Source: Paraburkholderia phenazinium | GTDB taxonomy: Bacteria > Pseudomonadota > Gammaproteobacteria > Burkholderiales > Burkholderiaceae | Direction: 5' to 3' | Length of the DNA stretch: 64,000 bases | Assembly: GCF_900142845.1 (NCBI RefSeq) | Contig: NZ_FSRU01000002.1 | Span: 2,976,001 to 3,040,000, forward strand | Part shown: positions 60,166 through 61,680 of the stretch, in pieces | Numbering within the stretch: the stretch's first letter is position 1 | Layout: every line of letters starts with the position of its first letter | Position numbers and translations under genes: made by a program | The notes under the pieces: generated by a model | What the model saw: only the letters and a program-made list of their open reading frames with translations | Database searches by the model: none | Told to the model about the DNA's origin: nothing

Positions 60166-60534
60166 TCCAAGGCAGTCGTACACATCGCGCAGGTGGCGGC
60201 ACGTCGTGTCGAAACTCCGAATACCACGGTAAGCGCTGTGCGGGACGCCCTTGCGTTCGTATACGGCGTGCGCAGCGGCGGTTCACGCACCGGGCCGCGC
60301 CCCGGCGCGCCCGGCGTTGCCACGCTGAATTTTCCGCTATACTTTGCGCCTGACTGTTGTCACCAACGGTCGTAGACGCGCCGATTTGCTGACTCGATTG
60401 CGGGCGCGCGAACCTGCCGGAATTCCATCCGGCGGTTCACTATAAATGCGGCTAAAGAGGTCGTCAGCCGCGCACATCGTCCTTTTCCGTGCCTTGCCGA
60501 CACCATTTAGCCGTCCCTGTTGAAGGCGGAATGA
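60166..60534. other. metX leader and promoter region
   Basis: About 370 bases between slmA and metX. A -10-like TATACT is at 60338-60343, with TTGCCA 15 bases before it. About 30 bases downstream begins the SAM-II riboswitch at 60376. From its end to the metX start are about 75 bases with no clear terminator. Confidence 0.6.
60376..60460 (+). ncRNA. SAM-II riboswitch (metX leader)
   Basis: Matches the SAM-II core in order: stem strand CGCGCC (60377-60382), GAUUU, loop with GACUC and UUGC, complementary GGCGCG (60403-60408), then AUAAAUGCGGCUAAAGAGG (60442-60460). GACUC and GAGG-UC can pair to make the pseudoknot. A hairpin (GAACC-U-GCCGGA / UCCGGC-GGUUC, 60410-60438, 11 bp) is inserted between the two halves; minimal SAM-II lacks this stem. 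SAM-II is known mostly from alphaproteobacteria, upstream of metA/metX. The ribosome site is not in the aptamer, so the control step may differ. Confidence 0.75.
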
Positions 60535-61680
60535 ATGGATTCAATCGGTATCGTCGCTCCCCAGAAAATGCATTTCTCCGAGCCGCTGCTCATGCAGAAC
60601 GGTAGCTCGTTGGCCGGTTTCGACCTGATGGTGGAAACCTACGGCACGCTCAACGCTGCGCGCAGCAATGCCGTGCTGGTCTGTCACGCGCTGAACGCCT
60701 CGCACCATGTGGCGGGCGTCTATGCGGACGACCCGAAGAATGTGGGCTGGTGGGACAATATGGTGGGCCCGGGCAAGCCGCTCGACACGAACAGGTTCTT
60801 CGTCATTGGCGTGAACAACCTCGGTTCGTGTTTCGGCTCGACCGGTCCGATGAGCCTCAATCCCGCCACGGGCGTTCCGTACGGCGCGAGCTTCCCGGTC
60901 GTCACCGTGGAAGACTGGGTGAACGCGCAGACGCGCGTCGCCGACGCGTTCGGCATCGAGCGTTTCGCCGCGGTGATGGGCGGCAGCCTCGGCGGCATGC
61001 AGGCGCTCGCGTGGAGCATGATGTATCCGGAGCGCGTCGGCCATTGCATCGTGGTGGCATCCACGCCGAAGCTGTCCGCGCAGAACATCGCGTTCAACGA
61101 GGTGGCGCGCTCGGCGATCCTCTCCGATCCCGACTTCCACGGCGGCAACTACTACGCGCATGGCGTAAAGCCGAAGCGCGGGCTGCGCGTGGCGCGCATG
61201 ATCGGCCACATCACGTATCTGTCGGACGACGACATGGCGGAGAAATTCGGCCGCTCGCTGCGTCGCGCGGAAGGCGCCGTCGATGCCTACAACTTCAACT
61301 TCGACGTCGAATTCGAAGTGGAATCGTATCTGCGCTATCAGGGCGACAAGTTCGCCGATTACTTCGACGCCAACACCTATCTGCTGATCACGCGCGCGCT
61401 CGACTATTTCGATCCGGCCAAGGCCTTCGACGGCGACCTGACGAAAGCCGTCGCCCACACCACGGCGAAATACCTGATCGCCAGCTTCACGACCGACTGG
61501 CGTTTTGCGCCAGCACGCTCGCGCGAACTGGTGAAGGCGCTGCTCGATCACAAACGCACGGTGACCTACGCGGAAATCGACGCGCCGCACGGCCACGACG
61601 CCTTCCTGCTCGACGACGCGCGTTATCACAACCTGATGCGCGCCTATTACGAACGTATTGCCACCGAGGTGAACGCATGA
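60535..61680 (+). CDS. metX: Homoserine O-acetyltransferase/O-succinyltransferase
   Basis: First committed step of methionine synthesis, acylating homoserine; 381 aa alpha/beta hydrolase fold. The nucleophile Ser151 is in [10 protein letters not shown] and the His in [11 protein letters not shown]; the motif [13 protein letters not shown] and [11 protein letters not shown] are typical of MetX. Whether acetyl- or succinyl-CoA is used cannot be told from sequence. ATG 60535 (MDSIGIV) is favoured with GAAGGCGGA upstream; the ATG at 60531 is out of frame. Overlaps metW by ATGA. Confidence 0.94.

Follow-up and report, generated by a model that had tools for sequence, protein, structure and literature searches.

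The metX leader of the soil bacterium Paraburkholderia phenazinium carries, 5' of the gene at positions 60377-60462 of the 64,000-nucleotide stretch of DNA analysed here (the window), a SAM-II-type pseudoknot with an 11-bp hairpin inserted between its two halves. Homology, co-variation of the pseudoknot and of the insert, the near absence of intrinsic terminators in its clade and a pair of alternative downstream folds lead us to read this element as a variant of SAM-II whose output is probably a relayed translational OFF switch. We give a chance of roughly three in four to the full model, in which a SAM-II-class riboswitch bears a hairpin at its P1/L3 junction and would switch off translation from a distance. 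Judged from its sequence, the element very probably belongs to the SAM-II class, and given that membership a relayed translational output is likely.

Architecture of the metX leader

All leader features given here lie on the forward strand. The core segments can be read directly from the sequence in the order that the initial annotation gave them, CGCGCC/GGCGCG, GAUUU, UUGC, AUAAAUG and GCUAAAGAGG. Helix P1 joins CGCGCC (60377-60382) to GGCGCG (60403-60408), both strands being evident in the sequence and in the minimum-energy fold and the 3' strand being marked by co-variation as well. It encloses L1, which runs from GAUUU (60383-60387) through the 5' strand of the P2 pseudoknot, GACU (60391-60394), and UUGC (60398-60401) to a last base G at 60402. 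Beyond the inserted hairpin (60410-60438), L3 occupies 60439-60450 and includes both AUAAAUG (60442-60448) and C60449, the partner of G60402. The final conserved core segment, GCUAAAGAGG (60451-60460), is recognised by sequence and contains the pocket strand GCUAAA (60451-60456), and the 3' strand of P2, GGUC, lies at 60459-60462. A loop-tail pairing, which had been proposed as GACUC with GAGgUC, does exist, but that version needs a bulge, and the fixed SAM-II register, in which GACU and GGUC form four contiguous pairs, one of them U-G, is better. P1 and the inserted hairpin are both present in the minimum-energy fold. The folding energy of 60370-60480 is unexceptional (z -1.1, with 28/200 shuffles equally stable), as is that of the downstream half of the leader (z -1.5), and the leader as a whole reaches z -2.8 (3/200 shuffles equally stable).

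Downstream of the element, the frame at 60535-61680 encodes a homoserine O-succinyl/acetyltransferase of 381 residues, identified as MetX by NCBIfam NF047916 (686.8 bits, cutoff 560), and the protein after it is MetW (TIGR02081, 264 bits, cutoff 189.5), so that the methionine-gene context of the SAM-II class is present. The metX Shine-Dalgarno sequence is AAGGCGG at 60523-60529, of which GGCGGR is found in 70/70 leaders of Burkholderia sensu lato (Burkholderia, Paraburkholderia, Caballeronia and Trinickia, assigned by record title). The ribosome site had been placed about 75 bases downstream of the aptamer; it does lie outside the aptamer, but 75 nt is the distance to the start codon (60535), and the Shine-Dalgarno sequence is 63 nt past the core. 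An out-of-frame ATG stands four bases 5' of the metX start (60531-60537, AATGAATGG), and TGAATGG occurs at this place in 52/70 relatives. Upstream, TATACT (60338-60343) is a possible but weak -10 box, with a poor -35 sequence, TTGCCA, at 60317-60322 and a spacer of 15; a scan for consensus promoters called a site on the opposite strand only, and not the TATACT at 60338. Among the records fetched, the closest named one compared over leader and metX is from Paraburkholderia sp. BCC1885, at 92.7% identity.

Homology to SAM-II

Rfam models run over the whole 64-kb window at curated cutoffs gave zero matches. The covariance search that had been suggested as a check gave a divided answer: the Rfam SAM-II model (RF00521) reaches only 13.6 bits on the metX leader (E 0.93, cutoff 36), in a partial match to the 5' half alone, but the same model finds 20/20 of the homologous insert-free metX leaders tested, 8 of them over the cutoff (best 52.0 bits, worst E 0.09). 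At E <= 0.5 RF00521 listed none of the five other insert-bearing leaders on which it was run. The insert, together with sequence divergence, would account for the failure of the Rfam model on this leader, and the Rfam cutoff is a detection limit rather than a defining property of SAM-II RNA.

The leaders come from a survey in which metX was sought in 200 genomes across Burkholderiales, 176 of them positive at the threshold used, and 110 leaders from these 176 were examined (30 loci given and 80 fetched, one of the 80, L230, having only 68 bases). A strict core pattern is found in 45/110, 36 insert-free (the source of the 20 tested with RF00521) and 9 with an insert (P1-L3 gap of 19-40 nt); in the remaining 65 the core is absent or more diverged by this pattern. 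From the 36 insert-free leaders, none of which belongs to this bacterium's family, we built a covariance model, R1. In the window R1 recovers each half of the element by itself, 60377-60411 with 28.2 bits and 60412-60470 with 21.6 bits; nowhere else in the 64 kb does it score above 10.5 bits. Across the 8.5-Mb genome the element is a single match of 33.7 bits with a rough E-value of 3.2e-6; only the metZ leader scores above it, and the next match below has E 0.08.

Outside Burkholderiales, R1 finds 17/18 SAM-II loci at E <= 0.01, 15 of them with at least 24 bits, the 18 being the Rfam-SAM-II-matched subset of 30 loci returned (16 over the Rfam cutoff and 2 just below it) and several being near-identical to one another. 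Because one of four control loci hit by the pattern, a presumably chance one from Peribacillus, obtained 17.3 bits (E 0.003) with R1, scores near 17 carry little weight and only the 15 loci are counted. Pattern matches in Bacillus relatives, Clostridium, Flavobacteria and others were put down to chance, and a stricter pattern that also demanded the P1 letters ahead of GATTT removed them. Within the order, R1 finds 28 of the 80 fetched leaders, including two (L257 and L260) outside the retrieval pattern, in which P1 is changed and the GATTT and TTGC segments, which R1 itself favours, are kept. Matches at E <= 0.01 occur in 146/200 Burkholderiales genomes, often at 2-4 places each.

Co-variation of the pseudoknot, and the letters of the putative pocket

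The outer pair of P1 co-varies among 35 distinct relatives (CG 14, AU 9, GC 7, 5 unpaired), the inner pairs being fixed by the retrieval pattern. The last L1 base (G60402) and its L3 partner (C60449), whose letters were free in the retrieval patterns, are paired in 122/122 distinct cores, most of them from close relatives (GC 118, AU 2, CG 2). For P2, free-form duplex energies were unsupportive, matched pairs coming out slightly worse (-3.20 kcal/mol) than mismatched ones (-3.63 kcal/mol), and this test gave way to one in the fixed register of the RF00521 consensus. In that register 159/220 cells are paired, against 131.2 +- 5.5 when partners are shuffled (0/2000 as high) and 86-113 when the register is slid by 1 or 2; the test is not blind, since the register was picked after the sequences and the SAM-II consensus had been viewed, and the slides and shuffles serve as its controls. 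The constancy of GATTT and TTGC in the alignments is no independent evidence because the retrieval patterns required both. Of the features by which SAM-II membership was judged, the leader contains P1 enclosing L1, P2 between L1 and the 3' tail, and the Watson-Crick pair that Barrick & Breaker 2007 predicted for SAM-II, in which the base that ends L1 is joined to one further downstream. The initial annotation's expectation of a core conserved in related metX leaders is borne out by the recovery of the element with a model trained outside its family and by co-variation in P1, P2 and the L1-L3 pair. That the element might be a decayed or coincidental remnant without function is suggested by its Rfam score below the cutoff and by a core that folds no more stably than many shuffles, and by nothing further; with helices and single pairs that co-vary across families, and with the E-value that R1 assigns in the genome, we regard this reading as scarcely credible.

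The letters of the pocket are compared through a mapping of the SAM-II crystal numbering onto the leader that we take to be correct. On this mapping GAUUU is G8-U12 by alignment and includes U11 and U12 of the pocket triples, and the sequence and the triples of PMC3764141 place UUGC at U20, U21, G22 and C23 and the pocket strand GCUAAA at G42-A47. The solved SAM-II pocket contains the triples G8-G42-C23, U11-A45-U21 and U12-A46-U20, and two of its uracils face the sulfonium of SAM (PMC3764141). By letters, all three triples are present here, at 60383/60451/60401, 60386/60454/60399 and 60387/60455/60398. Other riboswitch classes have come to recognise different ligands through minor changes, and the element has diverged enough to miss the Rfam cutoff, which could be taken to mean that a SAM-II-shaped RNA here senses a related metabolite other than SAM, or is read by a protein. 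The complete set of triple letters, including the uracils that read the sulfonium, and a downstream gene in the methionine pathway argue against this and make it very unlikely; SAM remains the ligand that we infer.

The inserted hairpin

The initial annotation had described an 11-bp hairpin between the core halves and had asked whether it co-varies; it proves to be a genuine and conserved helix. The hairpin, evident in the fold and in compensatory changes over 78 distinct inserts, stacks GAACC/GGUUC (60410-60414/60434-60438) and GCCGGA/UCCGGC (60416-60421/60428-60433) around one bulged U (60415) and closes on a loop at 60422-60427. Across these inserts the five basal pairs are standard in 371/390 cells, against 289.6 +- 8.2 (maximum 319) in 1000 shuffles. 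Compensatory types are found at pair 2 (AU 63, GC 14, GU 1) and at pair 4 (CG 58, AU 10, GC 4, UA 2, 4 unpaired). The inserts span 20-43 in length, with an upper part that is variable in length and less regular in its pairing, and their mean folding z is -3.5 (92/4680 shuffles equally stable). Inserts are found both with and without downstream terminators, and the hairpin therefore does not go with any single output. If the pseudoknot is of the H type, the hairpin would be expected to project from P1 at its open end and to point away from the pocket, and it may well be a passive arm or one that tunes folding.

Proposed output of the riboswitch

It had been assumed that the known SAM-II mechanism is masking of the ribosome site, but this does not hold as put. 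Corbino 2005, with Bordetella bronchiseptica among the SAM-II representatives, reported putative intrinsic terminators after many of the aptamers, and Barrick & Breaker 2007 describe SAM-II as mostly terminator-associated in alpha- and beta-Proteobacteria. Since many SAM-II aptamers are reported to be associated with terminators, the distance between aptamer and ribosome site is not odd in itself; what appears unusual in Burkholderia s.l. is that no intrinsic terminator is present and that a relayed translational switch stands in its place. A scan for an intrinsic terminator within 190 nt finds one in 32/36 insert-free leaders, in 26/30 other insert-bearing leaders and in 1/71 leaders of Burkholderia s.l., that one using the anti-sequestor helix described below. 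The four terminator-free leaders among the 30 are L048, L045, L079 and L137, of which L048 is a Burkholderia leader outside the start-codon pattern that was counted with the 30. An intrinsic terminator for metX in Burkholderia s.l. was accordingly rejected as a candidate on the count of one in 71. In L081, L155 and other Cupriavidus/Ralstonia leaders, an insert-bearing aptamer is combined with an intrinsic terminator, CCCGACTTGG..GTCGGGTTTTTT, and by eye the P2 3' strand of these leaders, GGTTGGGTCGG, looks complementary to the 5' arm of the terminator, making it a possible antiterminator.

The region between aptamer and start codon in Burkholderia s.l. can adopt two mutually exclusive folds, and both are retained in 70/70 distinct leaders. 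In the predicted minimum-energy fold of the free leader, the aptamer strand GCGGCUAAA (60448-60456), which overlaps the core, lies within an anti-sequestor helix with UUUAGCCGU (60506-60514), a strand supported by this fold and by conservation. When the aptamer strand is held, a sequestor is predicted in which an outer 5' strand, CCAUUUA (60503-60509), pairs with 60532-60538 over the start codon and an inner 5' strand, CCGUC (60511-60515), pairs with 60525-60529 of the Shine-Dalgarno sequence. The anti-sequestor helix has 9/9 pairs in 52 and 8/9 in 18 of the 70 leaders, the outer sequestor stem 7/7 in 36, 6/7 in 25 and 5 or fewer in 9, and the inner stem 5/5 in 69 and 4/5 in one, counts that are not independent because the leaders are close relatives. 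The anti-sequestor strand is invariant and for that reason cannot co-vary.

Calculated opening costs of the ribosome site follow the two folds. Averaged over the 70 leaders, the cost is 4.68 kcal/mol in the free leader and 10.77 kcal/mol with the aptamer strand held (+6.1); it rises by more than 2 kcal/mol in 70/70 leaders, and 1/700 shuffled linkers does as much. For the P. phenazinium leader the corresponding change is from 4.87 to 8.96. The unpaired probability of the site is 0.11 in the free leader and 0.00 with the strand held; the switch appears in opening energy rather than in accessibility because the site is already mostly paired in the free leader. In the mechanism that we propose, scarcity of SAM would let GCGGCUAAA (60448-60456) pair with UUUAGCCGU (60506-60514), so that the Shine-Dalgarno sequence and start codon of metX could be opened at a comparatively low cost. 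Abundant SAM would bind the pseudoknot, the pseudoknot would capture the strand GCGGCUAAA, and the freed CCAUUUAGCCGUC would fold onto GGCGG and UGAAUGG and close the ribosome site, which would make the switch an OFF switch.

The same SAM-II aptamer might instead control transcription, through termination without a U-run or through Rho. Intrinsic terminators occur in 58/66 leaders outside Burkholderia s.l., with and without the insert, and a terminator/antiterminator arrangement was proposed by Leyn et al. (PMC4239095) for the metXZ element as a whole. We nevertheless consider termination unlikely here, with the sole terminator-like site among the Burkholderia s.l. leaders formed by the anti-sequestor helix itself and with a conserved downstream strand whose letters complement those of the ribosome site and the start codon. 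In textbook SAM-II a ribosome site lying within the aptamer is masked directly, and GAGG (60457-60460) could be imagined in that role. In two leaders of one Burkholderiales family (f4; L021 and L025), an ATG 9 nt past GCUAAA opens the MetX frame, as in textbook SAM-II. Here, no ATG, GTG or TTG falls within 15 nt after GAGG, and metX starts 75 nt on with a Shine-Dalgarno sequence of its own, so that direct masking is most improbable and the relayed sequestor remains the output that we favour.

Related elements in the genome and the order

A second SAM-II-type element lies before metZ (identified by NCBIfam) in the same genome, at 557746-557814 of contig C1 (L271:1501-1569), and R1 scores it at 41.1 bits. 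It has a short insert, GGG-GCAA-CCC, and an apparent intrinsic terminator. The opposite strand at this place matches RF02424, the Bp2_287 'sRNA' of Burkholderia (L271:1469-1648 minus, 159.5 bits). RF02424 matches occur in 21 genomes, and in 4/4 loci compared, that of P. phenazinium included, they stand opposite an R1 match (L297, L298, L299 and L300, the last being the L271 place). Because of this consistent opposite-strand placement RF02424 may be a SAM-II riboswitch annotated on the wrong strand; the alternative is a true antisense transcript.

Twenty further R1 places were fetched, and among them are leaders of metK and metH. At the metK locus (L284, 25-97 and 1440-1518), a SAM-II element over the Rfam cutoff (41.7 bits) precedes the gene and a SAH riboswitch (61.2 bits) follows it. 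At the metH locus (L286, which holds only the first part of metH), a SAM-II element on the minus strand at 1653-1730 scores 37.9 bits, also over the Rfam cutoff. A variant motif with GAGUU for GAUUU, sought by a pattern with up to 2 mismatches, occurs in 32/300 genomes and lies before metK-like genes in 9/20 loci returned (L303-L311, at about 1481-1558; metK confirmed in L303). Over 23 copies from these and other loci, the position that follows UUGC and the one that precedes GCUAAA read A-U (13), G-C (9) or G-U (1), the pattern having permitted only A/G and C/T there, and P2 is paired in 79/92 cells. RF00521 did not list the motif in the GAGUU loci scanned. On its sequence, the GAGUU form before metK is a candidate SAM-II-like subclass, perhaps with an altered choice of ligand. 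In six tandem arrangements (L287, which is the same as L320, and L289, L294, L296, L318 and L319) a canonical SAM-II is followed 115-159 nt on by the variant motif; by eye, the genes downstream have no evident common function. At L312 (1587-1710, minus strand) a SAM-I/IV riboswitch match of 45.6 bits (cutoff 41.1) lies just upstream of the motif. These observations suggest that RF02424 may have been assigned to the wrong strand, and they bring out a SAM-II-like metK leader that the Rfam scans run here did not list.

More speculatively, and with considerable doubt, the SAM-II fold may have diversified within Burkholderiales into several switch designs as yet unrecognised by databases, among them a relayed-sequestor metX form with a working hairpin and a metK sister form, its pocket strand altered (GAGUU for GAUUU), that is possibly a distinct ligand class. 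On that tentative reading, a sequestor would have replaced the terminator, and the hairpin might, for example, time the co-transcriptional choice of fold.

Comparison with known systems

With SAM-II RF00521 (SAM_alpha) the metX-leader element shares P1, the GAUUU/UUGC segments, GCUAAA, the P2 register, the L1-L3 pair and a methionine gene; it differs in the extra hairpin between P1 and L3 and in having neither an in-aptamer Shine-Dalgarno sequence nor an intrinsic terminator. If our reading is right, the small SAM-II pseudoknot tolerates an entire hairpin at the P1/L3 junction, and a single aptamer is joined to three outputs within one order (a terminator, a Shine-Dalgarno sequence in the aptamer and a relayed sequestor), a good natural series for studying the evolutionary exchange of riboswitch outputs. 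SAM-V, as described, has the pocket and pseudoknot architecture of the same family but lacks the last 3' pairing element, which most SAM-II RNAs possess and which the metX-leader element has. The SAM-II long loops family RF01726 comes from a collection (Weinberg et al. 2010, PMC2864571) that widened SAM-II past the reach of previous homology searches, and is listed there from Bacteroidetes and marine samples. Neither SAM-V nor RF01726 matches 60300-60560 at E <= 5, RF00521 alone being listed from an Rfam copy of 4227 families that is presumed to include both; the comparison with RF01726 is one of model match. A literature search that had most subscription journals outside its reach returned no paper joining the metXZ element with SAM-II, and no description of the insert or of the relayed output.

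The metX-leader element was described by Leyn et al. 2014 (PMC4239095) under the name 'metXZ element', and their paper reports it from 35 beta-proteobacterial genomes, including 8/8 Burkholderia, with a pseudoknot and a terminator. As there, it lies before metX(W) and has conserved regions able to form a pseudoknot. Where Leyn et al. report potential terminators consistently downstream, the Burkholderia s.l. form is without an intrinsic terminator. They present the metXZ element as new beside SAM_alpha, which they report only in Rhizobiales and Rhodobacterales, whereas here it is aligned with SAM-II; our reading would place this RNA, described as a separate one, inside the SAM-II class.
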